A stretch of DNA of 49,977 nucleotides from a virus. The DNA lies in IMG/VR virus record IMGVR_UViG_3300027816_000144, positions 1 through 49,977 of that record; one strand, given 5' to 3'. Below are positions 5,744 to 42,100 of this stretch, in pieces; position 1 is the first letter of the stretch, and each line of letters opens with the position of its first letter. The position numbers and the translations under genes were made by a program. Under the pieces are notes generated by a model that searched no databases, was not told where the DNA came from, and saw only the letters and a program-made list of their open reading frames with translations.

Positions 5744-6811
5744 TCAGCACTTTACTGATCCACCACGTTTCTTTGCAGGGGTTACTGTCACGGACTTTTC
5801 AGTCTTGGTGACAGAGCCAGAAGGCTTGTCCTTGCTAGTAAACAGGCTCTTAGCACCCTCATACAGCTTGCTAGGAATGCTACGGATGGTTTTAGCCATG
5901 TCCATATCACTCTCGCTTGGGCCGATTGATTTGTCGTAAGCGCCTTTGGATAGGTCAGTTACTTTCCCGCCATCTTGATACTTCAGGTTGCTCTGGGCTT
6001 TCGCTTGCTTCATCGCTGTTGCGTTCTCAGCCTTGAAGGCAGATTGCTCTTTCTTCTGGGCTGGTGTCACACTGCCACCCTTTTTAAAGGTGCCAGATTG
6101 ACGATCATTGCTGACAGGAGCAGATGGCTTTTTCGCAGGCATTGCTACGGCGTGACCGCTGTTATTAACAGCTCCCCCCGTAGCGTAGTGCTTTTTTGTT
6201 GCACCGCCTTTTTTGTAACCACCGCCATTACCTAACTTGACCTCGCCTGTGGGGGCGCTGTTGTTGTCAGGATGGGCTGTGACCATCTTGGTGTTCTTGT
6301 AGCCTTCTCCGCCTTTGGCAGATACAGACTCAGGAATCACGCCGCTTTTGGCGATAGCACCGCCCTTTTTGTAGCCGCCTTGACCGTTCACAACACCACC
6401 TGTGGCGTAGTTGCCGGGCTTCGTCGACTTCAAGACGCCACCAGTAGCAAGACCTTTATGACCCTTGCTGGCAGGCTTATCTTCGTGAGACTTCAGCTCT
6501 TTTTCAAGACCCTTCATCTTCGACATTTCAGCCTTGTGCGTAGCCTTAGACTCGCCGCCTTCTTTCATGCCGCCTTGCATACCCTTCATGCCCATCATAG
6601 CCGCACGACGTGCCGCCATAGTAGGACGCTTAGGACGAGCAACGGGCATCATGCCACCGCGAGCAGGGCCTGAAGATGCCATAGAAGCATCCATGGGCGC
6701 ACCCATCATGCCGCCACCCATAGCCTTCTTCACGGATCCGCCTTTTTTGAGCTTTAACTCAATAGAAGGCTCTGTGGTCTCCATTTTGACCATTGGCTTG
6801 AATTGACCCAT
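5744..6811 (-). CDS. Lys/Gly-rich low-complexity virion-region protein
   Basis: A 355-aa basic protein made of short Gly-Gly blocks in disordered linkers: KKGGSVKK, ATGGVL, ATGGVVNGQGGYKKGGAI, GNGGGYKKGG and ATGGAV, more than a dozen in all. Residues 30-85 are very rich in Met, Gly and Ala (GGGMMGAPMD, AARRAAMMGMKGMQGG). The C-terminal 80 residues (TDLSKGAYDKSIGPSESDMD, then SIPSKLYEGAKSLF) look helical and end in KRGGSVKC. Such proteins recur near capsid genes of uncultured phages with no assigned role. The same GG motif appears in the 171-, 879-, 1654- and 1692-aa proteins here. An internal head protein or DNA-condensing role is inference from charge and disorder. Confidence 0.6.
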   Translation of the reverse strand: MGQFKPMVKMETTEPSIELKLKKGGSVKKAMGGGMMGAPMDASMASSGPARGGMMPVARPKRPTMAARRAAMMGMKGMQGGMKEGGESKATHKAEMSKMKGLEKELKSHEDKPASKGHKGLATGGVLKSTKPGNYATGGVVNGQGGYKKGGAIAKSGVIPESVSAKGGEGYKNTKMVTAHPDNNSAPTGEVKLGNGGGYKKGGATKKHYATGGAVNNSGHAVAMPAKKPSAPVSNDRQSGTFKKGGSVTPAQKKEQSAFKAENATAMKQAKAQSNLKYQDGGKVTDLSKGAYDKSIGPSESDMDMAKTIRSIPSKLYEGAKSLFTSKDKPSGSVTKTEKSVTVTPAKKRGGSVKC

Positions 6812-13697: not shown

Positions 13698-16337
13698 TTA
13701 TTTCCTTTTGAGCTTCTTGTTGCTCAGTTCCATGAACATAGTATCGCGGTTCTCAGTCATTCTAACCTTGCCGCTTTTCGAGTCTTTAACTTTTGGTTTA
13801 ACTGCTCCACCTTTAGCGTAGATGTCAGGCAGTTGTATTGGTGGGCGTTGAATCAATAAATTTTTAGGCAACGAATCATCCCAGTATTTTTCTGGCATAA
13901 CTTGGTTGCCAGTCATTTGCAACTCTTGCTTTAGACCTTCAATGTACTCTTCTTGTGAGCGGCGTGGTAATGGCTCACGCAATTCAAAACTTGGTACAAA
14001 ACGAACTAAATTTGATTTTTCGCCTTGGGTGGTCAATGCCCTGTTGCGGTGGCGACCTTCGTGCCCTGTAACGTATGGAATCAAAGGTAAACCAAACTCT
14101 TCTTTGTTAATCAGAAGATACGGCGCCTCGTTAAAACCTTCAGGAAGTTCTCGTAAATACTTTACATAGTCTTCGGTTGACTGTCGCATCTTGTCACCCA
14201 TGACGCCCGGCACGGAGACGTTTCGCGGTAACAGCTTTGCGGCGTACTTTTCAAAATCCGCAGGGTTCATGGTCATCAAAGCTTTTGCATTGTCGCCAAG
14301 AAAAGCTTCTTTGAGCGCTTGCTCTTTGTATAGCTTCTCAAGGTTAGGGACTTCGTCAGCCGCACGTTCTATACGCCTTGCGCCGTAGCCACCCTTCTCT
14401 TGCTGGACAACCTTCTTTAGCTCCGTCAGAGTGCTTGGCTTGACAACCTGTGGCGCGGCTTTGAGTGCCATCTTGGCAATAGCACCACCTGTGCCATACT
14501 GCGGCTCTTCTTCAGGCTCAAGCATCTGAGAAGCCGCACCAGCGCCAGCAGTTGGGATGCCAACCTGTTGGTACAGGGGTAGACCCTTCTGCTTGATGGA
14601 CTCACGCATTGGTTGAGTGATTGGGAAGTAGTGAACGTCAGACAGTTGTGTGTTGCCAAACCCTTGTAGGATCTTGCTGTAGTCACTAGCCTGTTCTGCG
14701 TTCATGTCAGGCAAATTGTCAGGATTAAGGTTGAACTTCTTCTCCATGGCTTCAGGCGTAGCCGCAACCTGACGCATCTGAACTTGAGCGCCGTAGTCTC
14801 TACCATAGCTATTCAGGTAGTCGGTCAGCATCTTGTCGTAGAAGCCCTCCATGCCCTCCTTGCGGGGCAGGGACGTACCTTCAGCTTCAGTCTGCATACG
14901 ATCCCAAATGCGGTTCGTTAACTTGTTGACCTGATCTGGGTTGTTTTCACGATTCAATACTGTGTTGACAATGCGGTGCAGGTCTTCCTTAGACTTGACT
15001 TGGTCACCGCTTCGCTCAAGCAGGATGCCTCGATCACGGGCAATCTCTTCAAGGTCTCGACCTTCATGGCGTCCGCCAGTCTGCTCCTTAGCTCCAACAA
15101 TCCAGCCGTCATCGCCCTTCTTCCAATCAATGCGCTCACTACCGTAGCGCTTGAAGTGCTCCGCGCCGGGCGTTATCGCTATACCGTCATAACCCTTTTC
15201 AGCGGCATAGTTCAGCAGACGCTTCATTGCCAGCTCATGCCAATTCTTTTTGAAAGGAGCGTCAGGAACAACCCCAGTCAGCTTGCCTTCTTGAGCAATT
15301 GTTTCCGCATGGTGTTTTCCGTAACCAAGCGTATCTACAGAGCCATCCTGCCACTTCACCCCGTAGGTGTTGTCGCCAAGAGGTATAGCCTCGCCAGTCA
15401 TACGCATTGGATTTTCCTCAGATGCGTAACCTTTTTTTCGTCCAGCTTGATGCCAATCAGATTGGATCTCCTCGACTTGCAACACCTTCCTTGGCGGAAC
15501 CTTGCGTTCACCTTGAGCCATGGTCACGTTGTTGCGTATGCTTTCAGGCAAAGTCTCAACATAAGCCTGCAACTCTTCAGGTGTGTCAAACATGGCTGAC
15601 TGTCTACCAGACGTCTTGTTGACAACGTAGAAGCCCTTCTGTGGGGGCTGGGCAATCAACCTATCCTGCACACGCATGTGCGCCAGCACGTTGGCATCGT
15701 CCCAGTGACCAGATTGGTAGTTGGATGCGGCTGTTTGCTTCTTCGCCTGCAATTCTGCCATCTCTTTACTTTGCGCAGGGGTTAGGTCACCACGTCGCTG
15801 TTCAGCCTCTAGCATCAACAAACGATGAAAGTCTTTTTCGGTATAAGACTGAGGCAACTTCAGTAGCATCTCGCGGTAATTGCTACCGCCCTGAGTTCTG
15901 TAATCGTCGTCGGCATACTTTGCGGCTTCAGCATCAATCTCTGCATTCCATTCACGCAATACTCGATGAGGCACTTCACGATAGTTGTCGTACCCATAAA
16001 TCTCCATCTTGTCATCAAGAAGCCTTCTACGCTCATCGCCATCAATGTCTTCAAGAATACGCTCTTGAACCTTTGGAGGCGGGTTGTCAGCTAGGACTTG
16101 CTGAGCCTCTTCCTTGGTCATCTTGCCCTTGGCTTTAAAGGCTTCTTCAAGCTTACGATCAGACAACTCAACAGGTTTAATATTTTTTGTATTTTTAAGC
16201 TCAGAAAAAAACTCGGCGCCTGTACCTTTGTTGCGTTTTAAGTTAGCAAGCGCCTCATCCACCGCGGAGTAGAAAGGTGCAGTCTTCCTGACCTTCTCAC
16301 CCGCCTTAGCGGCTCTCAGTGCTCCAATGATAGTCAT
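13698..16337 (-). CDS. Large polyvalent-type protein (879 aa)
   Basis: An 879-aa protein of several modules. Residues 280-400 hold EEIQSDWHQAGRKKG, then VPDAPFKKNWHELAMKRLL and GYDGIAITPGAEHFKRYG, a well-known module of large polyvalent phage and plasmid proteins. At about 610 is the linker YGTGGAIAKMAL. Near 745-770, PYVTGHEGRHRNRAL resembles the core of ParB-like or related polyvalent-associated domains. The C-terminus is YAKGGAVKPK and then ENRDTMFMELSNKKLKRK; a close copy of that last motif lies inside the 1654-aa protein. In other phages polyvalent proteins are packaged and ejected with DNA to blunt host defences. Here that is inference. The position between terL and portal is unusual but consistent with virion packaging. 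No clear catalytic site was identified. Confidence 0.65.
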   Translation of the reverse strand: MTIIGALRAAKAGEKVRKTAPFYSAVDEALANLKRNKGTGAEFFSELKNTKNIKPVELSDRKLEEAFKAKGKMTKEEAQQVLADNPPPKVQERILEDIDGDERRRLLDDKMEIYGYDNYREVPHRVLREWNAEIDAEAAKYADDDYRTQGGSNYREMLLKLPQSYTEKDFHRLLMLEAEQRRGDLTPAQSKEMAELQAKKQTAASNYQSGHWDDANVLAHMRVQDRLIAQPPQKGFYVVNKTSGRQSAMFDTPEELQAYVETLPESIRNNVTMAQGERKVPPRKVLQVEEIQSDWHQAGRKKGYASEENPMRMTGEAIPLGDNTYGVKWQDGSVDTLGYGKHHAETIAQEGKLTGVVPDAPFKKNWHELAMKRLLNYAAEKGYDGIAITPGAEHFKRYGSERIDWKKGDDGWIVGAKEQTGGRHEGRDLEEIARDRGILLERSGDQVKSKEDLHRIVNTVLNRENNPDQVNKLTNRIWDRMQTEAEGTSLPRKEGMEGFYDKMLTDYLNSYGRDYGAQVQMRQVAATPEAMEKKFNLNPDNLPDMNAEQASDYSKILQGFGNTQLSDVHYFPITQPMRESIKQKGLPLYQQVGIPTAGAGAASQMLEPEEEPQYGTGGAIAKMALKAAPQVVKPSTLTELKKVVQQEKGGYGARRIERAADEVPNLEKLYKEQALKEAFLGDNAKALMTMNPADFEKYAAKLLPRNVSVPGVMGDKMRQSTEDYVKYLRELPEGFNEAPYLLINKEEFGLPLIPYVTGHEGRHRNRALTTQGEKSNLVRFVPSFELREPLPRRSQEEYIEGLKQELQMTGNQVMPEKYWDDSLPKNLLIQRPPIQLPDIYAKGGAVKPKVKDSKSGKVRMTENRDTMFMELSNKKLKRK

Positions 16338-19300
16338 AGCGGTCTCTCTTCAAGGATCAGATCATCGCCACTTATTGCTCCACCAGCGGCTTTATGCATA
16401 CCAGTGTCAGCTACTTGACGTGCCGCATCATCCACTGACAAGCCCTTGTTGACAAGGTCTACGATCTTGTTCAGGTTGTTCATGCTGTCCTTGATCCCGT
16501 ACTTCTGGGCGGCTAGGACGAACTCGTTGCCATCAATCTTGGCGGCTGGCTTTTGGATTGCTCCGCCTTCTTTCTTGACGGCTCCGCCCTTCTTTCTACC
16601 AGTAAGCTCTTTGATGCGTCTGCGATAGGCTCCCACTTCATCCATAAACTGCTGGTCAACGCGCTGGTGTGGGAACACCTTTTGAATTGTGCCAGTGAAG
16701 TCCTGTGGACGCTGATGCGTAATGATGTGCTGAGCGGCATCAGGGTATGAGATGGCAAAAGGTGTAAGAACCTCTTGGTGACCCAAGTACATGCCGGGAA
16801 TGCCCTTGCTGTATGTCTTGTGTTTTGCAGTGTCAGTCAGTGGTGCATTTGGAACCAATTGACCAACACCATGTCCAGTCAGGTTCACTTCCATGTCGCG
16901 CAAGTCTGGGCTGGTGATTGCGTAGCGAACATCAAGTCCATTAGGTAAATTCAAAGGCTCAGTGATGCTTGGCGTCTGCATGACCTTGTTGAAGTACTTG
17001 CGCATCTCTGGGTACTTCTGCATGGCTTTGTAGGCGGCTTGCGGGTTTGCAATGCCGGGCCACTGCGGGAAGTCCACAACTTTGACAATTATTTCGCCAG
17101 TCTTAGGGTTCTTCTTAGTAATCTCAAAGCCCTTAGCCATTAACTTGTCAAACATATACATGTTCTCAGGCGTGAGCTTGCTGTAATCGATATAGCGCAA
17201 GTTGGCATCAGCAAAGTGCTGAGCAAAGTTTGTAGCTATTGGCCCCATCGCCATGTGTTGTCCAATGATGCGCTCAGAACCAAACAGGTTTGACAAGTCA
17301 GTCGCTTTGTTTTGCACCGCTTGAGCTGGGACTTCGTTGGAAGCATAAAACAAAGGCGTCTTAGCCTTCATGTGTCCAAGCCCATAGCGTGAGCCGCCCT
17401 CTTGGCGTGAACCTATTGCCTCACCCATCAAGCTCTTTAGCTCAACGTCAGAAAGGGTGAAGTCACCCGGCAACGCCACATTGATGTCGCCAATCTGCGG
17501 CTGATACACCTGAGACTCTGGAACCGCCTTGGTAGGTGTCAGCTCATAATCAAGAGCTTTGACGCGCTGGCTTTCCTTCATGGATCGACCCGCAAGGTTC
17601 TTGGTGTCGCCAGCTTTTCCACTGGTAACGTGCTCACCCATCATCTGACGCGCAACACGCTCTGCATGGGAGTTGATTTCATCCAAGGATTTTGGCATGG
17701 CACGAGGCAATACCAAAGGCAGTGCGCGCTCGGCATCTGCTTTTGCCATGGCGCTGGTAAAAACGCCTGACGACTCTAAGGGCGACACGCTCTTAACGCT
17801 AGCCCCAACAGGCAACCCCTTGGTCAAAGGGCCAAGCATTGGGTAGGCTTGTGCGGCTATGCCTAGCCCAAAAGCAGGCTCAGCCACGTCTTTAATTGCT
17901 TGGTAGTCAGGGTGCAGAACACTGAAGCCCATCTCATCTGGACGTTCACCCATCAAGCCAGCTACAGCGGCGTAGGTGCGAGGATCCTTCAGTGTGTTTA
18001 CGTCAGCCTGCTCGGCGCGTTTCTTAGCGGCGGCGTACTTCTTTGTGCCAGCTCCACCGAAGTAGGGCTTAGCGTCGTCCTCAGAGCCGCCCTCCTTCAT
18101 GTGAGCCAAGCCGCCACTGGCGTACTTGAAGTCTTCCAGCTTGCCAAACTTGGGGTTCTTTGCCAGCACGAGGGGGCCGATCTGGATGACCTCTTCAGCA
18201 TTGACAACAGGCGCCATGGTCTCGCGGTCATAGAAGAAGCTGTGACGCTCTGGATCCATGCCAACCTGACGCCACTCTGGGTTCTTCAGGTACTGCTTAG
18301 CCAACGTAAACGCCTCGTCGGAGCTTGTGGGCTTCCACTTGCCTTCCATGGTGGCGATGGTGTTCTTCTCAGCGCCCTTGGCAATACCTAGAGCCGCCTT
18401 GGGGCTAACGCTGAAGTCAACGTCGGTCGCCATGGCAACAGGCTCGTAACCAATGCGTGTGCCTGCACCACCAGAGACTGGGCTCTTGCGGGGGCCGTGC
18501 GCCGTAACGACCCAAGTGTTCGCTTGGTTGTAGGACGGAATGTCTAAGCGCAGACCAACAGGGTCGCCTTCCTTCAGTGTCGAGGATGGCTTGCCGAAGT
18601 ACGTCTCCTTGCGTGGCAGACCCTCAGCTTCACGGCTGGTCTTAGACAGAGCGGCAAGAATCTCCTCACGGCTGGCTGGCGCTGGGACTGACTCATAGGG
18701 CGTAACGGGCTTATAACGCTGTACAAGGCGCGCATACTCATCGGCTGATATATCACCAGCCTCAATACGTGCGGCGGCTTCCTGAAGCTCTGGTGTGCGC
18801 TTGAGCACGTCTTTGTGCGCCATGTTCACACGATCAACCGTAGGCTCAGGGAAGCGCCTTGCCAAGTTCTCGACTTCAGCGGTGTTCATGTTGATAGGCA
18901 GGTCGTTGCCAAACTGCATGGATAGCCTCGGCACTTCAATCTTTGGAGGCTTAGCCGCCTTCAATCCCTTTCCGACTATGAGCTTGCCACCTGCATAAGC
19001 AGGGACGCCGTTCTTCATCTTCTGGTTGTTCACCTCGAGCATCATGGTGTCAGGGTTGTTGGAGATGGACACCTTACCGCCTGCCTTCATGCCACCGCCT
19101 TCTACTCGCTTTTGCTCAGCGTTTTTCAGGTCTTCGAACTCTTGCCAAGTAAAGTACTTTTGTTTATTACCTTTCATGTCCCAACCAGCTTTTCTAATCT
19201 GATCTGCCGAGATCAAGTTGGTGTTGTTGAAGTCGCGGACGTCAGACCAATTGCCACCACGTACAAAGTCTTGCACGAATGGCAGGTATTCTTCTTTGGG

Positions 19301-21298
19301 CTTGGCGTTCTGCTTACCTTTAATTTGATTGATAAACGCAGGCATGTTTTCTTTTGCCATACGGATCTCGATGTCCCTGACATCATAGTCTGTGTAGCCG
19401 TTTGGCAGTTTCTTAGCTTCCTCTAACGCCGCCTCTTTGTACGGCAACAAATCTTCGTTGCGCAATTGACCTTTGAATGCACCTACTTCAACCGTAACGT
19501 GAGGTTCGCCTTTAGCGTCAACTAACGAGTAAACCTTGGCATCGCCTCTCTTGATGGCATTCCATCCACCAAGCCCGTAGCCAGAGTAACCACTATCACC
19601 TGAACTCTTAGTCCAATCGGAACTGCCTTCTGGTGGCTCGTAACCACGGACTGAGTGACCCATGGCGTCTGACTCCGCGGCAAAGTCGCCGGGTCGATTC
19701 AGCTCCACCCACTTCAGACCTTCTGGGTATTCTTTGTAGACAGGCAACTCAGCACGAGACGTCATACGAGCCTCGTTCATTTTTTTGGCAAGCTCTTGGT
19801 CGTACTCATAAGTGCGGCGTACTGCCTGCTCCATGCTGACCTTGTTCAGTTGCTCAGGGCGAATGCGACCAGTGGCTAGGTCTTCTTTCAACACGTCAAC
19901 AACGTGATCAAACCCCAAGTCATAAGTTCCGCCTGAGTACAGTTTTGTCTCTGGGTCAAGCTTGGCAACAAACGGATTGATCTCACCAGCTCGCTTCTCG
20001 AAGCCGTGTATTCTTGCCATCAATTCATAAGACTTGTGATGCAGATCTTTTAACTTTGTGTCACCCAAAATCTCTGCCTTTTGAAAGCTTGGCATCTTGT
20101 CAAATACTTCACGGTCTTTAATGTCAAGACCGCCTTTACCTTTCAAAAAGTTAATAAAGTCGTCATCAATTTGTTTTTGATAATCGGCTATCTCAGCTCT
20201 GACCTCATCAAGCCTTTCATTAACAGTTGCCGCTTCTTGTATTTTTCCAGCCTTGGTTACCCTGATTGCATCATCGGATATGTTCTCCCACTGCTTAGCA
20301 AGATCAGACTTGCCCATGCCCTCAGCAGGGTAGCCTTCAGCTTTACGAATGGCTTGCAAGTATTCCATGCGGTCTAAATCGTTGCGAAGCGGGGTGTGGA
20401 TGATGCCCTCTTCAGCCAGCTTACGAATTGGGTCGTCACGTGTACCCATTTCTTTCTTAACGTAGTTCTTTAGGTTACTGTCAATCCATTTATTGATAGC
20501 ATCTTTTTGCGTAATAAGGCCTTCAACGGTGTCGCCTTCACGACCTATCATGGTGTCTACCTTCAGCCTGCGAAGGTCGCTTTCGGGAGTTCTAATCTGA
20601 TCTTTGTCGCCACCGCCCAGCCAATTGCCACCGTAGGGCTTGACCACGTTGGACTGTGTGTTAGCACCCATCGCCATGACCATCTCACGAGGTAAGCCAC
20701 CACGTTCAAAGGCGCCCTTGACGACGGGCTCCATAGCGCTCTCAATCTTCCTACCGACCTGCTCTGCGCCCCTGCCTGCCGTTCTCATGGCTTGGGACGT
20801 GGCTGGGCCTGTCAGGAACTGCAACGCCACCGCTTCGGGTAGCACTGGCGGGATCTTGTACTCGGTCTCGAGCTTCTCGAGGAAGTCGCCTACGTCACCT
20901 GCGTACTCATAAGCCGTGGGTTGCTCAGGCTTGTAGATGCGTTCCTGCATGAACTTGTCAGCCGCCTCGTCACCTTTGAACATGCGCGTGGGGATTGAGT
21001 TGATGCCCTGCGTAAGAGCTGAGCCAAGGAAGCGTCCAGCCTGTACGCCACCAGCCAGCTTCTCGAGTGGGGATCTGTCAGCCTGTTGCTGGCGCCTGAG
21101 TTGGGCGTCGCGTTCAGCCATGCGCCTGCTTAGCTCTAGGTTCTCTTTGGATGGAACGCTCAGGTCAACGTCGCCGTACTGTGGCAAGTCCATCGCTCTC
21201 TCGTCATCAACGAAGGGCATCGGCTGAGCAGGCTTGAAGTTCTTAGCCTTGATGTTCCCAACTCGTGGGTAAAACGCTGGTTTGTTTTCGTCAGCCAT
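16334..21298 (-). CDS. Giant polyvalent-type protein (1654 aa)
   Basis: The second largest gene in the window. Helical N-terminal regions are followed, around residues 510-700, by VELNRPGDFAAESDAMGHSV and VYSLVDAKGEPHVTVEV with KEEYLPFVQDFV, the M-H-S-V-x-G-Y type module of polyvalent proteins. Residues 740-765 have NNPDTMMLEVNNQKMKNG, matching the C-terminus of the 879-aa protein and suggesting fusion of two ancestral proteins. Residues 865-1060 contain GLRLDIPSYNQANTWVVTAH and QVGMDPERHSFFYDRET with VIQIGPLVLAK, another common polyvalent module. YASGGLAHMKEGG and KKGGAVKKEGGAI are flexible linkers. A last domain runs from about 1330 to 1560. Its ATG overlaps the 879-aa start region by 4 nt. 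Ejected counter-defence function is inference from family knowledge. Confidence 0.65.
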   Translation of the reverse strand: MADENKPAFYPRVGNIKAKNFKPAQPMPFVDDERAMDLPQYGDVDLSVPSKENLELSRRMAERDAQLRRQQQADRSPLEKLAGGVQAGRFLGSALTQGINSIPTRMFKGDEAADKFMQERIYKPEQPTAYEYAGDVGDFLEKLETEYKIPPVLPEAVALQFLTGPATSQAMRTAGRGAEQVGRKIESAMEPVVKGAFERGGLPREMVMAMGANTQSNVVKPYGGNWLGGGDKDQIRTPESDLRRLKVDTMIGREGDTVEGLITQKDAINKWIDSNLKNYVKKEMGTRDDPIRKLAEEGIIHTPLRNDLDRMEYLQAIRKAEGYPAEGMGKSDLAKQWENISDDAIRVTKAGKIQEAATVNERLDEVRAEIADYQKQIDDDFINFLKGKGGLDIKDREVFDKMPSFQKAEILGDTKLKDLHHKSYELMARIHGFEKRAGEINPFVAKLDPETKLYSGGTYDLGFDHVVDVLKEDLATGRIRPEQLNKVSMEQAVRRTYEYDQELAKKMNEARMTSRAELPVYKEYPEGLKWVELNRPGDFAAESDAMGHSVRGYEPPEGSSDWTKSSGDSGYSGYGLGGWNAIKRGDAKVYSLVDAKGEPHVTVEVGAFKGQLRNEDLLPYKEAALEEAKKLPNGYTDYDVRDIEIRMAKENMPAFINQIKGKQNAKPKEEYLPFVQDFVRGGNWSDVRDFNNTNLISADQIRKAGWDMKGNKQKYFTWQEFEDLKNAEQKRVEGGGMKAGGKVSISNNPDTMMLEVNNQKMKNGVPAYAGGKLIVGKGLKAAKPPKIEVPRLSMQFGNDLPINMNTAEVENLARRFPEPTVDRVNMAHKDVLKRTPELQEAAARIEAGDISADEYARLVQRYKPVTPYESVPAPASREEILAALSKTSREAEGLPRKETYFGKPSSTLKEGDPVGLRLDIPSYNQANTWVVTAHGPRKSPVSGGAGTRIGYEPVAMATDVDFSVSPKAALGIAKGAEKNTIATMEGKWKPTSSDEAFTLAKQYLKNPEWRQVGMDPERHSFFYDRETMAPVVNAEEVIQIGPLVLAKNPKFGKLEDFKYASGGLAHMKEGGSEDDAKPYFGGAGTKKYAAAKKRAEQADVNTLKDPRTYAAVAGLMGERPDEMGFSVLHPDYQAIKDVAEPAFGLGIAAQAYPMLGPLTKGLPVGASVKSVSPLESSGVFTSAMAKADAERALPLVLPRAMPKSLDEINSHAERVARQMMGEHVTSGKAGDTKNLAGRSMKESQRVKALDYELTPTKAVPESQVYQPQIGDINVALPGDFTLSDVELKSLMGEAIGSRQEGGSRYGLGHMKAKTPLFYASNEVPAQAVQNKATDLSNLFGSERIIGQHMAMGPIATNFAQHFADANLRYIDYSKLTPENMYMFDKLMAKGFEITKKNPKTGEIIVKVVDFPQWPGIANPQAAYKAMQKYPEMRKYFNKVMQTPSITEPLNLPNGLDVRYAITSPDLRDMEVNLTGHGVGQLVPNAPLTDTAKHKTYSKGIPGMYLGHQEVLTPFAISYPDAAQHIITHQRPQDFTGTIQKVFPHQRVDQQFMDEVGAYRRRIKELTGRKKGGAVKKEGGAIQKPAAKIDGNEFVLAAQKYGIKDSMNNLNKIVDLVNKGLSVDDAARQVADTGMHKAAGGAISGDDLILEERPL

Positions 21299-21357: not shown

Positions 21358-22794
21358 TCATGCTGAGTACGGGTTCTCACGTTTCTTAGCCATACCGCTG
21401 TCCAAGTAGTCGTCCTCGTCGTAGTCGTCCCGCGGTGCTCCGTCGATGTCCAGCCAACCAGCATCACGTAGGAACCGCAAGCCTTGGGTGCAGGCGTCCA
21501 CGAAGTCGTCGTGTGTTGAGTCAGGGAAGCTACAGATCTGGGACACAAAGCCCTCAGCCCAGTCCTTGACGTAGCCCTTCCTGACACTGCTCTCAGGGAT
21601 CCACACACGCCCTGCGGCGATGATGTTGGACACAATGTTAAGGCGTTGGATCTTGTCAGCCCGACCGGGGTTGTACGCCCTCACTGGCAAGTGCCCACGT
21701 TGCAAGTCTTGTATAAGAGCTATGCCTGCGGACTTGTCTTCCACGAGGATCAGGTCTACGCGCTTCTTGTCCTTGCCCTCGCCGTACACCACGTCGTACT
21801 CCTCGATGACCTTGGGGCGTAGGTCTGGGTATTGCAGGCGGTCTTGCCAGCAGTCGATCACCATCGCGGACATAGGGCCGTCCAGCGGCTTGAACACACC
21901 GAACGTGACGGAGGCTGTCGGATCGTTGACAGTCTTCTCCGAGCTGGCGCAGTCGTAGCTTTGCAGGATGTACTCGAACTTGGGGAACGGCTTGTTAGGC
22001 GCCCACAGCTTGAACATGTCGCGCTTAACGATCCCTGATTCCTCAGCATCGATCAGCTCAGCGTGGATCTCCTGCCTGCCAATCTTTGTACCCTCATAGG
22101 ACAGGATCTGCTTCTTAAAGCTTGCAGACAGGTTCTCGAGGTTGACGTAGGTAGATGCCGTCGTGAGGGCTACGTCGTCTCCTTCACGCCCTACGAGCTC
22201 CACAATGAGGTCTTTGGGACGTGGGGTGGTCGTGGCAATGATTTGGGTGCGACCGTCTGCCTTTTTCAGTCGTACGGCGAACTGGATGTTGTACCAAGCT
22301 TCATCGAGGTAATCCCAAGCGGCAAGCTCATCTAGCCATGCGCCATGGTACTGACCACCACGAAAGCGATCAGGCTCGCTGGCGCTGATGCCTTTGATCA
22401 GGCTACCGTTGATCAGGACGATCTCGTGCAGGGCTTTGTTGTAGTCTTTGATTAGGATCGAAGGGATCACAGCCATGAGTCCTGACTCACCCTCAAAGCA
22501 CGTGCCGCGGACGTCCATAGACGTAGGGGCGGAAACCAGCCAGCGTGTGTTGGGGTTCTCCCACGCCCACCACCAGATCTGTTCAGCCGCAGTACGGGTT
22601 TTCCCTGCCCCACGACCAGCCAGCATGAGCCAGATACTCCACCAAGTACCTTGGGGTAGCTTCTGATGATTAAACGCGCCTGAGAGCCATTCCGTGCGCT
22701 TGGCGTAGGCTGAACCGTGGAAGGGGCCGCTCCTGCGCAGGTTGTCCTTGTCAGACAGGATCTCCAGAATCTCTGGCTCTATGACCGCGCTCAT
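21358..22794 (-). CDS. terL: Terminase large subunit
   Basis: A 478-aa protein of normal length for TerL. Walker A is LAGRGAGKT at residues 58-66, and Walker B is HGAWLDELAAW with D155 and E156. The coupling motif is ATTTPRP at 188-194. The nuclease half carries the RNase H-like acidic residues: SYDCASSE (D281), LVEDKSAG (D353) and STHDDFVDA (D429-D430, D433). The enzyme cuts concatemeric DNA and pumps it through the portal. It overlaps terS by 4 nt (ATGA). The next gene is not the portal but a 1654-aa protein, so the usual terL-portal pair is split. Confidence 0.93.
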   Translation of the reverse strand: MSAVIEPEILEILSDKDNLRRSGPFHGSAYAKRTEWLSGAFNHQKLPQGTWWSIWLMLAGRGAGKTRTAAEQIWWWAWENPNTRWLVSAPTSMDVRGTCFEGESGLMAVIPSILIKDYNKALHEIVLINGSLIKGISASEPDRFRGGQYHGAWLDELAAWDYLDEAWYNIQFAVRLKKADGRTQIIATTTPRPKDLIVELVGREGDDVALTTASTYVNLENLSASFKKQILSYEGTKIGRQEIHAELIDAEESGIVKRDMFKLWAPNKPFPKFEYILQSYDCASSEKTVNDPTASVTFGVFKPLDGPMSAMVIDCWQDRLQYPDLRPKVIEEYDVVYGEGKDKKRVDLILVEDKSAGIALIQDLQRGHLPVRAYNPGRADKIQRLNIVSNIIAAGRVWIPESSVRKGYVKDWAEGFVSQICSFPDSTHDDFVDACTQGLRFLRDAGWLDIDGAPRDDYDEDDYLDSGMAKKRENPYSA

Positions 22795-23351
22795 TCAGCA
22801 ATCCGAATAAGCTCTAAGCGTTTGATCGCCACATCCATCTTCGCCTTAACGTCTACGTCGATGATGTTGCGGTCATCCTGCTCCTCAGAAGGCATTACAC
22901 GCTCGTTGTACTTTTTAGGCGCCATGCGCGCCGCTGTCCACTTGCGAGTGTCAATCCGAAGCTTCATCCACTGGACGTAAGAGGAGTCGAACTTGACCTC
23001 GACCAGCTCACCGTTCTTGTCAGTCACGTGGCTCAGCTCTGGCGGTTGGTCGACAATGTCAATCATTTCATCGAACTGCGTCTCAGCTTGAATTTCACGA
23101 GCGCGTGTGTATTGCTCAAGAAAGTCAGCCTTGGTGGTCAACCACGTCATCACTGAAGCCATGCTTGGCATGTCATCGTCTCTACAGATCTTACGTAGAC
23201 TCTCCCCTAATCCTAGCCTTGTACAGATCTTGATAGCTAATGCATCTGAGTAGATGGAAGGTCTACCCATTGTTGGCTTCTCCTTTGTTTGCGGCTTACC
23301 TGTCACATCGGCGACTGTGTCGCTGGAAAGATCTTTTGGTTTCTTTGCCAT
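22791..23351 (-). CDS. terS: Terminase small subunit
   Basis: A 186-aa protein. I use the ATG at 23351, 7 nt after AAAGGAG; a GTG one codon earlier is closer to it. MGRPSIYSDALAIKICTRLG followed by ESLRKICRDDDMPSMASVMT forms the DNA-binding helix-turn-helix common in small terminases. KADFLEQYTRAREIQAETQF is the helical oligomerisation part. The C-terminal segment KWTAARMAPKKYNERV is a typical TerS ending. It recognises the packaging site and recruits TerL, which overlaps it by 4 nt. Upstream lies a short gap with a near-palindrome (TTAA-N8-TTAA), not identical to the operators. Confidence 0.85.
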   Translation of the reverse strand: MAKKPKDLSSDTVADVTGKPQTKEKPTMGRPSIYSDALAIKICTRLGLGESLRKICRDDDMPSMASVMTWLTTKADFLEQYTRAREIQAETQFDEMIDIVDQPPELSHVTDKNGELVEVKFDSSYVQWMKLRIDTRKWTAARMAPKKYNERVMPSEEQDDRNIIDVDVKAKMDVAIKRLELIRIAE

Positions 23352-23402
23352 CACTGAGCTCCTTTAACGCAAAGTTTAACGGATCTTTGTGTTTGTATGC
23401 AA

Positions 23403-34920: not shown

Positions 34921-36477
34921 TTATGGCATGGGGTTGCCCATTGGGTCTGTGTCGGACAAAGACCTCATAATGGTGTCGCGATACTCAGCAGGATTGCGCT
35001 CAATGTCTTGCTTTCTACGTCGCAGGTCGCGGATCATTGGCGCCCCAATAGACAAAGGAATAGCCAACGGCGCTAAGGGCGGGATGAATGACCCAACTGT
35101 GCCTAATACGCCTGCACCAGTCAAACCAAGGTCGGTGTAATCAGGTTGAGAAACCCTCATGCCGTAGTCAAGCTCGGGAACTTCCATGCCGATTGACAAG
35201 CCAGCTAAAGGGCCGCTGATGTATGGCAGTTTGCCCAAGGTTCGGCTGGCGGTGTTTGCCATGCCCTTAAGTTCACCAAAGGTGGGGGCGGCGTTGCTGG
35301 CAGACTTCATCATGCTGACAAACAAGTCTTTTGTAGCGTCTAAGCCTGACATCTTTGGAACAACAGGGACTGGAGGCTTAGCACCACCAACTTCGCCTTG
35401 AGGGCCGCGGGGGCCGAGGTATCGAGGTAGGTCAGAGCGAGGAGCCAAAACGCCGCTGGGCGTGGAGGTCATCCCCGGTTGCTGTGCAAAGAACTGCGGC
35501 GCCTCTTGGGTAACTTGACCCGTCTGACGCAACAGTTGTGCAATTCTTTCAGCCTCAGCCTTAGCCGCCGCCTGCTGAGAAGTCTCAACGTTGTAGCCAG
35601 TCTGACGCGCACGACCCGTAGTCCCCAAGTCGCCAGTTGTACCCTGAAGGATACGTGTTGTCTGAGGATCCGCTCCAGAAGGCAATCCGCCTCTTTGTGG
35701 AGGGGTAGGTGCACCACCAACCGTTGGAGCGCCTGTAGGGGGCGTTTGAGGGGGTTGCTGACCTAATTGCTGAGCTATTTGACCAAGGCTTTGCGTAACA
35801 CGACCAAGTCCTCGTCTAGCATCAATTGCATCTTTAGCCACAGCTCCGCCCAAACCAGCACTAGCACCTACCACAGCGCCAAAGGGTTTCTGTTCAGCCG
35901 CAGTCTCACGAGCCTCGATCATTTCTTGGTCAAGCTTCATCTGTGCAAGCTGTTCTGGCGTTGGCTCGTTAACTTGTACGGCAGGCTTTGGAGCGCCCTC
36001 AGAAGGAGCTTCAGCGGGAGCTTGGGTGTTAGGGTTAAACAACTCAAACGTACCAAAACTTTTTAAGTCTTGAACGTACTGTTTAGTTTTTGGCCCCATC
36101 GGCTTGTCGGCGGCAAGATCTGCTATAGCGTCAGGGCCGCTGTGGTAGTACACCGCCGCCAGTTTAGGGTTGTTGTTTGTGTACGCCAACGCTTCTTTGA
36201 GGTTTTTAAGACCAGCATCAAGGTTCTTCTCTGGGTCGCGCAAATCAGCTTCAGAGTAACCGTAAGCCTTACCAGTTGGAATTAAAACCTGCATCAAACC
36301 AATTGCGCCCTTTTCACTGTCGGGCGTGTTAGGGCGAAGTCTGCTTTCTTGGTAGGCGGTAGCAACAGCAAGGGCTGGATCGACGCCTATGGCGACGGCT
36401 CTTTTAGCAACCTTCTCGGCTTGATTAAGCTGTTCTTTGTCAAGCTTTTTTGGAAAATTGAGTTTGAGGTCAGCCAT
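34921..36477 (-). CDS. Virion-associated lytic transglycosylase and ejection protein
   Basis: A 518-aa protein from ATG 36477 (an in-frame TTG two codons earlier is also possible). The N-terminal 140 residues form an SLT domain: AVATAYQESRLRPN with catalytic Glu at residue 44, GAIGLMQVLIPTGKAYG and AAVYYHSGPDAIADL. The rest is low-complexity Pro/Gln/Gly-rich with hydrophobic helices such as GAVVGASAGLGGAVAKDAID and near the end GVLGTVGSFIPPLAPLAIPL, suited to entering the host membrane. Such proteins cut peptidoglycan locally during DNA entry (compare T7 gp16 or P22 gp4). It ends the late operon before the strong terminator. Confidence 0.75.
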   Translation of the reverse strand: MADLKLNFPKKLDKEQLNQAEKVAKRAVAIGVDPALAVATAYQESRLRPNTPDSEKGAIGLMQVLIPTGKAYGYSEADLRDPEKNLDAGLKNLKEALAYTNNNPKLAAVYYHSGPDAIADLAADKPMGPKTKQYVQDLKSFGTFELFNPNTQAPAEAPSEGAPKPAVQVNEPTPEQLAQMKLDQEMIEARETAAEQKPFGAVVGASAGLGGAVAKDAIDARRGLGRVTQSLGQIAQQLGQQPPQTPPTGAPTVGGAPTPPQRGGLPSGADPQTTRILQGTTGDLGTTGRARQTGYNVETSQQAAAKAEAERIAQLLRQTGQVTQEAPQFFAQQPGMTSTPSGVLAPRSDLPRYLGPRGPQGEVGGAKPPVPVVPKMSGLDATKDLFVSMMKSASNAAPTFGELKGMANTASRTLGKLPYISGPLAGLSIGMEVPELDYGMRVSQPDYTDLGLTGAGVLGTVGSFIPPLAPLAIPLSIGAPMIRDLRRRKQDIERNPAEYRDTIMRSLSDTDPMGNPMP

Positions 36478-36479
36478 AT

Positions 36480-38198
36480 TCAATCCGTTTGTTTGTCTAC
36501 GTTTGCACCAGCCGCCTTAAGATCAGGCTTACCTTTTTGTTGTTTTGTAGATGTTATGCCAGCTATCTTACGCATGTCTTTGTCGTAAGTGTCATACAAA
36601 GACTTGTACTTAGGTGTGTCCATGTAGCTCAAGTAGGTGCTGTCAGGGTTCTTGACAATGAACTCGCGATAGGCGTTCAAGTCATCACGCTCAAAGGTTG
36701 CGCGCTTGCTAACAGCTTGAGCTCGGAGCTTAAGAACCTCTGGACTCATAGAGACATTACCAGCGCCAGCACGACGAACAATTGCTCGCTCGCCTTCGGT
36801 GATAGGGCCAGTCCCCTTCAGGAACATGTTTGCGTAGTTCAACTCAATGTTGGCCTGCTCAGCGGCACCTAAGCGAACAGCGTTGATGTCAGAGTCTTTG
36901 ATCCTTGGGTTTGCGGCTCGGAAGGCATCCTCAAAGCCGCCCATGTCAACATTGACCCTGTTGGCGCGAATGCCATCACGCACCAATGTACCAATGGCTG
37001 GCAATACACCAGCTTTGTCAAACGTGCCAAAGCCTTTGGGGTTCTTGTCCACAATCTCGTACAAAGAATCAGCAGAACGCGCTAATGAGTCGTAGCGTTT
37101 GATGTCGTCAGGTAAAGTCTTGCGACGCTCAACTTCACTCTTAGCCTCGCCTGATGCCATTTCCTTTTTACGAGCGGCTTGGGCTTCTTCCTGTTCTTTG
37201 GTCAACATACCGCTTTGAACGGGGGCGTTAGCAGGAGCGGCTCCAGTAGGCGTAGCATTAGCAGGTGTTGGAGCGTTAGCGACAGGGGGACGTTTCATTC
37301 CCTGCGTAATCAGATCCGCAACTTTGTAATACTCTTCAGGATTGTTGTTTGCCTGTGCGTTGGCTAAACGAGAAGCCAATGTTTTAGTTGTGGTAAAGAC
37401 GCCCTTGTCAGGAATCCTGACCTCAGTAGGCGTGGGATCAACGGGAGCAAACACTTGACCAGTCTTGATGTTGGTTGCGCCTCGCTCGTTGACAATGATG
37501 TTCTTGCGACGCATCTCGTCAATCTCTTTCATGATCTCACCCATAGGCTTACCAGCACGTCTCAGTCTGCTGGCTAACTCAGTCTCTTCAGCATCCCACG
37601 TAGTAGGTTGGGCAGGGAATAACTGCTGACCAGAGGGTTGTACGGCTGGCTGAGCCGCAGGCTGTGCGGCTTGAGCCAATGGGGCAGGCGTAGCAACAGC
37701 AGTTGTGGCAGGGGGCGGAACGGCTTGAGCCAAAGCGCCAGCAGGTGGCTGAGGCGCGGTAGCTGGAGCAGGAGCGGAAGCCGCAGGCAGTGCAACAGGT
37801 GGTGGCATACCAGCCGCAGGGGGCGCAGGCTGTGCTGTTGGGGCTTTGTAGGCTTTGGCATTAAACGCCGCTTGATCTTGCTCGGCGTTTTGGGCTTGAA
37901 TGGTTGTTTGTAAACCTTGCTGAGCCAACTCCATGCGCATCTTAGCCATGTCCATGGTGCGCTTTTCTTCAGCGGCTTGGGCAGGGCCTAACGAGGCGGC
38001 TACGTTACCTAAAGATTCACCAAAAGCCCCAGTCTTTGTGGGCGCAAAGAAACCTTGTGCGGCGGCTAAAGCTACAGGATCAAGCAAGCGATTGTTTCGC
38101 TGTGCAAGGATGTCTCTAGCCTCTTTTTGGGCGGCTTCGTACTCAGTCCAAGAAGGAGTACCGTAACCTAGGGAAATTGGAGCTGATGCTTGTGCCAT
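36480..38198 (-). CDS. Internal virion or ejection protein (Ala/Pro-rich)
   Basis: A 572-aa protein. Residues 1-110 are helical (TPSWTEYEAAQKEARDILAQ, then EEKRTMDMAKMRMELAQQGL). Residues 115-195 are a Pro/Ala/Gln-rich disordered linker (APPAAGMPPPVALPAASAPA). The C-terminal half is helical again (PDDIKRYDSLARSADSLYEI, YANMFLKGTGPITEGERAIV, KRATFERDDLNAYREFIVKN). This form matches other large ejection proteins found between fibre or nozzle genes and lysin in podoviruses. No enzymatic residues seen. Packaging into the virion is inferred from place and composition. Confidence 0.6.
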   Translation of the reverse strand: MAQASAPISLGYGTPSWTEYEAAQKEARDILAQRNNRLLDPVALAAAQGFFAPTKTGAFGESLGNVAASLGPAQAAEEKRTMDMAKMRMELAQQGLQTTIQAQNAEQDQAAFNAKAYKAPTAQPAPPAAGMPPPVALPAASAPAPATAPQPPAGALAQAVPPPATTAVATPAPLAQAAQPAAQPAVQPSGQQLFPAQPTTWDAEETELASRLRRAGKPMGEIMKEIDEMRRKNIIVNERGATNIKTGQVFAPVDPTPTEVRIPDKGVFTTTKTLASRLANAQANNNPEEYYKVADLITQGMKRPPVANAPTPANATPTGAAPANAPVQSGMLTKEQEEAQAARKKEMASGEAKSEVERRKTLPDDIKRYDSLARSADSLYEIVDKNPKGFGTFDKAGVLPAIGTLVRDGIRANRVNVDMGGFEDAFRAANPRIKDSDINAVRLGAAEQANIELNYANMFLKGTGPITEGERAIVRRAGAGNVSMSPEVLKLRAQAVSKRATFERDDLNAYREFIVKNPDSTYLSYMDTPKYKSLYDTYDKDMRKIAGITSTKQQKGKPDLKAAGANVDKQTD

Positions 38199-38210
38199 AA
38201 TTTTTAACCT

Positions 38211-39149
38211 TTAATCAGGCAATAATCCACCAACATACTTAAACGCTTTGTCTAAAAGACCAGTTTGATCTTTGTTCGTTCCAGCCGCAACCAATGAACC
38301 CAAGCCACCAATCTGTGACAGGATGGAGGGGCCGTAGGAGGAGGCGGGGCCTTCCGTCTTCTCAGTCGTAACCGTTGGGTACGTATAACCACGTAGGATC
38401 TGCGCTACGTTACCAGCCATGGTGGTTGGTGCGTTGATTAAAGCTTGGTTCTGGGCTTGCTCAATAGCGCCGATGTCCGCCTGAGTCTTCAGACCAGTCG
38501 TAGCGGCTTGCTGTTCTTGAGCACCTAAAGTGCCCAAAGCTTGGGTGCTTTGTGTCTGACCACTCATCTCACGCAAGGCGGCGTCTAGGGCTGACTGATA
38601 ACCAGCAGAGCGAGCTTTGTTTTGCTCTTGCAAAAGGGTGGTGTTCACATCACCCATGGTCTGACCCATGGCGTTGGCATAGCGTGAGCTACCCAAAGCG
38701 CCAGAACCTACAAAGCCAGCCTTTAACTGGGGCATAAGGTTACGTTGGACATTCGTCGCGCTTTGTGCCCCCATACCACCGACTACGGCGGCTTCGTAAG
38801 GGTTATAAAACTTAGAGATGTCAGTTGGGCTAACGCCCGTAGCTTCTTGACCCGTTGAGTACGCCAAATCCATTGGATCCTGATAGCGATAAAGGTCGGT
38901 AGGAGCGGCTGTAGCCGCGCCTGTCTGCAATGTACTTAACGGCGCAACGTAAGGCTCACCAGCCTTTTTCATTACGTCGTACGTAGGAGCCGTGTATGCG
39001 CCAGTTACTGGATCTTTTGTACCCAAAGCCTGCTGACCTTGCTGTGCAAGTTGCGTCAGGTAGTCCGTCAGGTACTGAGGAGCTACAGCCGCCGTTTCGC
39101 GGGTGGTTGTTACATTTGGTGGCGCTTCACCTTGGAATAAGCTTGCCAT
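38211..39149 (-). CDS. Internal virion-type protein, 312 aa
   Basis: N-terminal EAPPNVTTTRETAAVAPQYL, then YLTQLAQQGQQALGTKDPVT and FYNPYEAAVVGGMGAQSATN. The central helical part (NLMPQLKAGFVGSGALGSSR and YANAMGQTMGDVNTTLLQEQ) and Gln-rich end are familiar from the ejection-protein clusters of uncultured podoviruses. A hydrophobic tail (GPSILSQIGGLGSLVAAGTN) could touch membrane. It follows the 1692-aa gene directly with AAGGAG before its ATG. Role inferred. Confidence 0.6.
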   Translation of the reverse strand: MASLFQGEAPPNVTTTRETAAVAPQYLTDYLTQLAQQGQQALGTKDPVTGAYTAPTYDVMKKAGEPYVAPLSTLQTGAATAAPTDLYRYQDPMDLAYSTGQEATGVSPTDISKFYNPYEAAVVGGMGAQSATNVQRNLMPQLKAGFVGSGALGSSRYANAMGQTMGDVNTTLLQEQNKARSAGYQSALDAALREMSGQTQSTQALGTLGAQEQQAATTGLKTQADIGAIEQAQNQALINAPTTMAGNVAQILRGYTYPTVTTEKTEGPASSYGPSILSQIGGLGSLVAAGTNKDQTGLLDKAFKYVGGLLPD

Positions 39150-42100
39150 TTATTTGCTCCTTACCTGTTTCTTTAGGTAGTCAAGTGGTGATTTTAATGC
39201 TGGCGGTGGTAGGTCTTTTGGCTTCTTAGACCTAGCTCTGGCGCGTATAGAGTGCATCATTTCGTATAGTTTATCTGAACCAGCCTTGGTTGAGCCATTT
39301 CCTAGCGCAGAAACTACGTCCGCAGGGAACACAAACTCACCGTCAGCCAGCATGGCTTTGATGTCGTCAGACTGCCCATCGCCCTCGCCAGCCACATGGG
39401 CGCCGTGGCGGTAGTCTAAACGACCGTCTCCGCGAGGGAGAGCTCCCAAGGCGCCACCAGACTTAACCAGCAGGGGTAGGGGCATAGCGCCACCAGAAGC
39501 CATCTGAAGGGGGGCGACGTAGCCACCAGCCGCAAAGCCTAGGGATCCCTCTTCCTCTTCAGACTTTTCGCCAAACAACGTGTCTAAGTCGTCTGGGGCT
39601 GTGCCGTATTTCCAATTGCCTTGATCTGGCATATCTGGTTCCTGTGTATTAACTTGAGGTAATGCTGGCATTTTCTCAGTATTCATGCCTTCTTGCAAAG
39701 CCTGAAGCTTGGCAAGCGGATCCACGAACTTATCCTGAGTCATGTACGCCTTAAGCATCTGTGGGGGAAGGCGATCCATTTCACCAGCCATAACCGCTCC
39801 GCCTAGCAAACCAGCGCTTAAAACCGCCTTCTTCTTGGTGGACGTCTTGGGGGTTGTTGGTGTGACTGGTGTAGCTGTTGGTGTGCCAGAGATCAAGTCA
39901 TTGATCGTGCTGATCAGGTCAGCTTTTTCTACGGCTGAAGTTGCTGTTTCAGTTGCAGACTTTTTAAGCTGATCAATGTTGATGTTGATGTTTGTGTTGA
40001 TGTTCGTATTGACGTTGGCGTTTACTGCGGCGTTTACTGCGGCATTAATAGCAGTATTGGTGTCCACACCAGCATTCACAGCCGCGTTCACAGCCGCATT
40101 GACTGCGGCGTTGACGTTAGCATTTACGCTTGCATTTGTATTGGCATTTACGTTGGCGTTTACAGCCGCGTTGATTGCCGCAGTTACAGATGTTTCAATC
40201 GCTGTGGCGGCATTAACATTACTGCTCAGCGCGGTTGTTACAGCAGAATCTACGGTAGTTGTTATTGCTGTGTTGGCATTTACGCCAGCACTTGTAGCCG
40301 CCGTAATTGAGCTGGATACAGTCTTTGATACATCCGCACCGCTTGTAATTGCTGAGCTGACAGTCGAATTGATCGCTGTGGTTGTGTTAGCACCAGCGGT
40401 AATGGCTGAGTCAATAGACGCCGTGACTGTCTGATTTACATCAGCACCGCTTTCAACGGCAGAAGATACGGCGGCTGTGATAGACGTGCCTGTATCAGCA
40501 CCGTTGGTAATGGCTGAGTTAACGGTAGCACCAACAGCAATCTCAACGCTTGAGCCACCAGACAGTGAAGTCTGAACAGAGTTTGTAATCGCTGTGTTTA
40601 CGCTTGCCGCATTACCAGAAGTAACGGCGGCTGTAATGTTGTTGTTGATTGTTGTGGTTGTGGCAATGTCACTAGGTGAAGTTGCAACAGCAGTACCCTT
40701 ACCAACAGCTCCACCGAGCACGGTTTGTGTTAGCGCTTTGTTTACATCTGCTTCTTGTCCAAGAGCTAAATTGACAGCAAGGGATGACCCGCCCTCTTGA
40801 CCACCTTCAACTACTGTCTCACCGACAATCTTAGATCCAGCTTTAGCGCCAATATTTCCAATTTTGCCAACAACAACGTCAGCAACCTTGCCTAGTGTTA
40901 ACTGAACAGCGGCTTCCGCCATACCAGCGGCGGCGCCAGCTTTTCGGGCGTCTGACAAGGCGTCTGCATGGGTTTTACCAGCCTTGATAGATTCGTCATA
41001 AGTTTCTAGGGCGGCGTTACCAGTGGTCTCACCAACGTCCATAGCGCCCGTGGCAACCAAGATGCCTTTGACGCTACCCCCGCCGAGGAAGAGACCGGGC
41101 AACTCTTGCCTCAGCTCCACCTCAACCTGACGACCCAAGCCACTGTTGCCGTCCATGATGCGACCAGCCAAGATGCCTATCTTTTCCCAGCCTTTTGCGT
41201 TCTGAATCAGCGATGTTGTTTCATTCCAATTTTTGGTATCCACCACACCATTGCCAATGCTTTGACCAACTTTAGTCAAATCATTGCCACTCTTTACAAA
41301 AGCGTCTGCGAGGGGCTTGTTGTTTGTCAACAAAGCTATGCCACCTGCAACATTCTTTTCTAAGTTGCCAGCGGCTTCGTATGCCGTGCTCACACTGTTT
41401 GTGATGGGGCTGTTTGGGTTGTTCTTCAAGTAGTCGTTAGCCGCGGCACTGCTCAACTTCATTTGATTTTGAACGGCATTAACCATAGTGTCAAAAACAC
41501 CCGTCTTTTCCATAGACGCTATTGCGGTTTTTTGAGCGGCTTGTTGCTTGGCAAGTTCTTCTGCGGCAGTAGCTCGTGCGGCTGTATCGCTTTGAGCGGC
41601 GACAGTCTTAGATGCATCCGTTACTGTTGCCAAATTTGCTTTGTTCAACTGATCGATGGTGGGGCCAGCCAAGTCTGGGCGTTCAGCGGCTGTAGCAGTT
41701 GAGTACTCCTTACCCTGCCATGTAAAGGTTTGTCCAGCACCCAAGCCAGCTCTTGCCGTAGCAAAAGCTTCGTTAAATGTCTTGGCGTTTTTGATGTCGT
41801 CTAAGACTGCGGTTTTTTGGGTTTCATTGAGCGCCTGAGTTACAGCCGTATTTGACGCACCCAATGTGTATGTCTTGCCATCAAATGTAAAGGTTGTACC
41901 TGTTGGGTTGCGCTGTTTAGCTAGATAAGCCGCCTCTTCAATATTGTCTGCTTCTGCGTTGCCAATAACTGTGTTGTTCCTTGCGGTGTTTGCCGCTACT
42001 GCCGCATCTACACCCTCAAACTCACCACCCTTTAAATTGGCGGCGGTGTTTGCTGTAAGTGCGTCAGACTCTAGCTGGGCAATCGTGTTGGCGGCATTGT

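Follow-up and report, generated by a model that had tools for sequence, protein, structure and literature searches.

A modular terL–portal cassette of polyvalent-type proteins, a candidate virion-cargo locus with a shared peptide tag

Introduction

The internal proteins of phage T4 are small and carry an N-terminal signal. Together with Alt they form a diverse cargo in which only a short capsid-targeting sequence is conserved (PMC3012670). In phage P1, a short N-terminal signal directs packaging of the giant protein DarB, whose gene lies directly upstream of the portal gene (ORF 10 and 11; PMC9024508), and a DarB-like protein was found in virions of the podovirus JC1 (PMC9144972). Iyer et al. 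(2017; PMC5512222) describe phage polyvalent proteins as associated with virion genes and often equipped with a peptidase domain that is thought to process them; the ParB/sulfiredoxin superfamily is among the domains that they contain.

Here, two giant proteins, gpA and gpB, encoded between terL and the portal gene of a virus were compared with these systems. Like the proteins of Iyer et al. (PMC5512222), they are very large, multi-domain and encoded among the late virion genes of a portal-terminase phage. With DarB/DdrB they share the giant size, the position directly upstream of portal and a short peptide (PMC9024508); the P1 signal is N-terminal, whereas the candidate tag described here is C-terminal and internal, with a role proposed by analogy. 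None of the family matches of gpA and gpB pointed to DarB. In contrast to the small T4 proteins, gpA and gpB are long multi-module chains. The PcfJ-like protein of DSL-LC04 likewise lies between terL and portal, and it carries FAEGG linkers; however, it is a single protein of 825 aa, whereas gpA and gpB total 2533 aa.

Gene order and occupancy of the terL–portal interval

The window, i.e. the whole stretch of DNA that was analyzed, is an IMG/VR virus record of 49,977 bases. Its minus strand encodes, in this order, terS, terL, gpA, gpB, portal, a GroES-like protein, a putative scaffold and the major capsid protein. TerL and portal were assigned by Pfam and PHROG profiles, the GroES-like and scaffold names from the sequence and the gene order in annotated relatives. 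The terL–portal interval of 7.66 kb (terL end 21358, portal start 13694) is occupied by gpA and gpB, and the two giant open reading frames that the sequence-only reading had placed there were both recovered, on the minus strand:

22791-23354, minus strand: terS
21358-22794, minus strand: terL, upstream border of the cassette (Terminase_6N 8.8e-19, phrog_38 5.3e-24)
16334-21298, minus strand: gpA, multi-module polyvalent-type protein of 1654 aa
13698-16337, minus strand: gpB, multi-module polyvalent-type protein of 879 aa
11145-13694, minus strand: portal, downstream border of the cassette (phrog_1216 6.7e-20)

The two genes overlap by 4 bp (ATGA), 3 bp separate the gpB stop from the portal ORF, and both adjoin virion genes of a portal-terminase phage in a single transcription direction. 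Since homologues of gpA and gpB are kept across 42 and 78 fetched loci, respectively, both were regarded as real genes.

Relatives were fetched via gpA, gpB, terL and capsid, giving overlapping sets that are partly chosen through gpA/gpB themselves. Both borders were present in 88 loci (68 distinct) and the slot was filled in all of them. There it measured 2.3-8.1 kb (median 6.0) and held between one and four ORFs of 150 aa or more, the shortest gaps deriving from capsid-seeded loci. The idea of a rare insert was therefore rejected for this phage group (68/68 filled), and the location, which had been called unusual, is so relative to phages at large but not within the group. Caulobacter phage RW, CRP-901, Alcaligenes phage QDWS535 and MinM2, four cultured relatives in which portal, GroES and capsid follow a similar order, have no insert, and their terL and portal genes are adjacent or nearly so. 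Smaller inserts occur in the cultured phages HTVC027P (a Pelagibacter phage; two proteins, gp41 and gp42), DSL-LC04 (one, PcfJ-like) and MW202545 (one, 890 aa). Given the fact that the slot is filled in all distinct loci yet empty in several cultured relatives, it is accessory at the larger scale and looks like accessory cargo.

In addition, a tRNA-Val is located exactly between terL and portal of Caulobacter phage RW (L259, 5328-5401), in the place of the cargo genes. In MW202675 (L256, 4812-12309) three proteins of 740-899 aa follow the portal instead of preceding it; the first is annotated as peptidase M15, and the other two match modules B1 and A7 (listed below). A recurrent ORF of about 246 aa was also noticed among the gap ORFs (L070, 5554-6294, and similar), with eight related proteins.

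A Pfam search of 38 sister gap proteins yielded PcfJ, ART-PolyVal, LPD23 and ParB_N domains, whereas an NCBIfam scan of the same 38 returned nothing but ParB-type matches, one member each. Because sister phages encode genuine polyvalent domains in this slot, and because modules recur in LPD-bearing giant ORFs, the earlier description of gpA and gpB as multi-module polyvalent-type proteins holds.

Modules and GG linkers

Module limits were set by local-similarity boundaries, by which gpA was split into A1 to A8 and gpB into B1, B2 and a tail, B3. The four peptides on which the sequence-only reading was based were all found, each in a different module. The mapped parts, all on the minus strand, are:

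20633-21298, minus strand: A1, gpA 1-222, N-terminal piece common to 76 gap proteins
20225-20632, minus strand: A2, gpA 223-358
19103-20011, minus strand: A4 (MGHSV...), gpA 430-732, PcfJ-like via homologues
19010-19096, minus strand: internal junction peptide GMKAGGKVSISNNPDTMMLEVNNQKM, gpA 735-763, GG linker plus tag
18119-18865, minus strand: A5 (QVGMDPERHSFFYD), gpA 812-1060, phrog_586 / L5 gp82-like
18050-18124, minus strand: GG linker YASGGLAHMKEGG...YFGGAG, gpA 1059-1083, low pLDDT (model 264-279)
16589-17725, minus strand: A7, gpA 1192-1570, in 101 gap proteins, fold weakly similar to YTH/EVE
16337-16588, minus strand: GG linker (gpA 1571-1580) and C-terminal module A8 (gpA 1580-1654)
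14502-16337, minus strand: B1 (EIQSDW), gpB 1-612, GNAT-like fold by structure only
14457-14501, minus strand: disordered GG linker YGTGGAIAK, gpB 613-627
13830-14456, minus strand: B2 (GHEGRHRxR), gpB 628-836, weakly ParB/sulfiredoxin-like
13701-13820, minus strand: YAKGG linker and C-terminal tag ...DTMFMELSNKKLKRK, gpB 840-879, disordered with a short terminal helix

At least four modules of gpA and two of gpB are separable, and each occurs alone or reordered elsewhere, as in the orders A7-B2-B1 (L027), A7-A5-A2-A4 (L079) and A2-A4-B1 (L219). The flanks retain about 80-95% DNA identity while the content and order of modules in the slot differ. In L109, homology to the window is lost some 12 bases after the gpA start and resumes, at 95% identity, 5 bp ahead of portal. 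Other breakpoints lie beside the linkers: DNA homology restarts at gpB 844 in L004 and L009 (YAKGG at 843) and at gpA 1569 in L048 (KKGG at 1571), and it ends at gpB 611 in L009 and L048, before YGTGG (GG at 617). The sequence that follows the internal junction peptide GMKAGGKVSISNNPDTMMLEVNNQKM also varies between phages. Phages that conserve terL and portal thus exchange modules and change their order, and the junctions concentrate at the GG linker.

The linker was described by the motif [MFYKL]xxGGx[VILA], with restrictions on the two x. In this strict form it occurs 2.5 times per 1000 aa in gap proteins compared with 0.13 in composition-matched shuffles (19 times denser), and 20.6% of homology boundaries lie at most 12 aa from it compared with 4.6% of random positions (4.5 times); as the gap proteins are related, these ratios are descriptive and not probabilities. 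In the predicted structures the linkers and the gpB tail are disordered.

A shared peptide tag

The pattern D[TA]MxxE[LV] is found after the linker inside gpA (750-756) and again at the end of gpB (DTMFMELSNKKLKRK). It closes most of the ORFs that stand last before portal, whichever modules precede, and was counted 148 times compared with 1.2 in shuffles. Tagged ORFs are confined to the slot (152 inside), with one outside, a portal protein that apparently matches by chance. Tag variants persist where portals are only about 61-70% identical, and the residues around them differ (LELSNKRKKAK, YELISVKHSKKVK, LELMQRN). A recognisable tag on the last ORF is missing in many of the more divergent phages and in L094 and L109.

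The C-terminal copy covers what is probably the ribosome-binding site of portal (CTCAAAAGGAAATAA). Its DNA is more conserved than the synonymous sites of portal (4-fold difference 0.177 compared with 0.405), as a ribosome-binding site within it would predict, so that some of the conservation has a cause other than the peptide and the terminal copy alone does not prove a peptide function. At the internal copy of gpA, the amino-acid difference is 0.10 and the 4-fold site difference 0.37, which indicates constraint at the protein level. Since this copy is constrained and divergent versions are kept, the tag probably functions as a peptide.

In the parts of PMC5512222 considered here, there is no account of a fixed terL–portal slot combined with swapping at GG linkers and a terminal tag common to the proteins. 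Linker, recurring tag and cassette swapping were all absent from the module list of the sequence-only reading and are the most informative features of the locus. Swapping at linkers together with a portable tag lifts it above one more polyvalent protein.

Candidate module identities

Searched alone in a Pfam HMM scan, gpA and gpB gave nothing above the cut-off, PDB sequence profiles gave no match and Foldseek against the PDB returned nothing significant for gpA 800-1654. PADLOC had no match for either protein, LPD models did not directly match the window's own modules, and a peptidase domain was not recognised in gpA or gpB. Profile and structure searches had been proposed with the original description; while Pfam remained silent, PHROG contributed phrog_586 for A5, and the fold matches were moderate for B1 and weak for B2 and A7. 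Folds were searched within models of 855 and 879 residues.

Pfam PcfJ (PF14284) matches 11 of the 38 sister gap proteins, and in L219 the match (351-432) falls within the A4 homologue (242-530). The A4 of the window did not match PF14284 and is 36% identical to the DSL-LC04 protein annotated as PcfJ-like; the PcfJ-like label of A4 comes from its homologues. A5 matches phrog_586 (8.6e-4), L5 gp82 being below the cut-off, and co-occurs in giant ORFs with LPD38 and zeta toxin or with lysozyme, LPD23 and LPD38. The viral structure matches for gpA 800-1654 bear the names PcfJ, ART-PolyVal, tail lysozyme and zeta toxin.

On a Pseudomonas aeruginosa plasmid, a 15-kb ORF ("LPD23 domain-containing protein") contains a stretch that matches B1. 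The B1 model was aligned by VIA-align to the tRNA-acetylating toxins AtaT/KacT with Z 9.6 (usual noise 7 to 8; 128-150 residues aligned, rmsd 3.5-5.4), and nearly all matches listed by VIA-align were GNAT or related acyltransferases, the Foldseek matches being weak. PF00583 was not matched in Pfam and a single-sequence hhalign comparison of gpB with a phage acetyltransferase gave no usable signal; B1 resembles the GNAT fold in its predicted structure, without sequence support.

In B2, GHEGRHRxR is invariant in 10 sequences. Sulfiredoxins were the best-probability Foldseek matches (0.47-0.96, E 0.07-0.7; weak but consistent), and Pfam ParB did not match. Sulfiredoxin requires a catalytic cysteine in the motif GGCHR, which is absent from B2, where GHEGRHR stands in 10/10 sequences. 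The model is weakly compatible with the ParB/sulfiredoxin superfamily. HEGRH may also be a zincin HExxH peptidase motif; this less likely reading was set aside because the B2 model matches ParB/sulfiredoxin. For A7, the top 17 structural matches are YTH or EVE-type, their Z reaching no more than 5.9 (trust level 8), and the resemblance is suggestive only.

The domain content of the published network (ART, LPDs, ParB, GNAT, kinases and peptidases) is thus seen in the sister slot proteins, and the window modules are linked to it via homologues and structure only. Compared with the proteins of PMC5512222, the likeness lies in ART-PolyVal, LPD23 and ParB in sister slots and in LPD38, LPD23, zeta toxin and lysozyme beside A5, and the difference in the window modules, which have neither a direct LPD match nor a recognised peptidase.

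Interpretation of the cassette

We consider it probable, with moderate confidence, that gpA and gpB are late polyvalent proteins, coupled to portal, that serve as cargo and form a modular virion-cargo cassette with a shared docking or packaging tag. Both would be expressed late and coupled to portal, each as a string of independently folding modules on flexible GG linkers, and would probably be recruited to the procapsid or portal via the short shared peptide (D[TA]MxxE[LV] plus a basic end, with GG linkers). The flexible linkers may let the modules thread out with the DNA, and the injected modules could act on targets or defences of the new host, i.e. in counter-defence. Packaging, threading, delivery and targets are proposed because of the precedents of T4 internal proteins, P1 DarB and the DarB-like protein of JC1.

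It is rather unlikely that the GG linker and the tag are mere seams, that is, flexible linkers plus recombination-friendly or ribosome-binding DNA with no role in docking. The concentration of junctions at linkers and the unusually conserved terminal tag DNA over the portal ribosome-binding site would fit such a reading; however, the internal gpA copy lies far from portal and keeps its residues while its 4-fold sites vary, and the peptide pattern is retained in divergent phages despite different surrounding residues. A very unlikely alternative holds that a phage or host protease cleaves gpA and gpB, as polyproteins, at the GG motifs and so releases the modules singly. The GG motifs do sit between modules, and a peptidase domain is frequent in polyvalent proteins and thought to process them (PMC5512222); yet Pfam and PHROG profiles recognised no peptidase domain in gpA/gpB, and a non-exhaustive search saw no prohead protease in the window.

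As structural ejection or portal-core proteins, comparable to T7 gp15/gp16 or the N4/P22 ejection proteins, gpA and gpB would form a conduit for DNA delivery and have no effector function. This is unlikely: syntenic relatives in culture lack any insert in the slot, its content is hypervariable with ART and ParB domains in sisters, unlike a conserved conduit, and separate proteins of the lysozyme/internal-virion and DNA-ejection-like kinds are already encoded elsewhere in the window (34921-39149). For a conduit speak the position next to portal, the late operon and the translational coupling, as well as HTVC028P gp34, which contains B1 and lies within an internal-virion-protein block, and one BFVD match named structural protein, from a Flavobacterium phage for which virion proteomics was not found in the literature. 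That gpA and gpB are late intracellular proteins that stay unpackaged, either as assembly factors or in exclusion of or defence against rival phages or plasmids, appears decidedly unlikely. PADLOC and family searches fix no function, which leaves room for it, but the tight coupling to the portal gene, the shared tag and the published link of phage polyvalent proteins to virion genes (PMC5512222) argue against it.

Within the virion-cargo reading, we tentatively suggest, with somewhat less than even confidence, that the terL–portal slot is a dedicated plug-in site at which effector modules delivered by the virion are exchanged through recombination at GG seams and a portable tag addresses any combination to the virion. 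If so, it would be a modular phage protein-delivery cassette with a logic comparable to that of polymorphic toxin loci. Should the tag be a packaging address, it would offer a simple test of whether an uncharacterised module, of which freshwater and marine phages have many, travels in the virion, and it could yield new domains for effector or counter-defence functions. Since contents are swapped between conserved flanks, past recombination at the cargo locus can also be read base by base.

GG linkers outside the cassette

TerL, portal and capsid showed no concentration of the linker motif. Outside the slot it is concentrated in the putative scaffold, in gp4897 and above all in a 355-aa post-capsid protein. 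The latter (5744-6811, minus strand), encoded shortly downstream of the major capsid gene, has eight GG linker copies and is conserved in sisters. In the tail/ejection region, a protein of 1692 aa (39150-44228, minus strand) carries FAAGGYVAPLQMASGGAMPLPLLVKSGGALG near its C-terminus, in the linker style of gpA and gpB.
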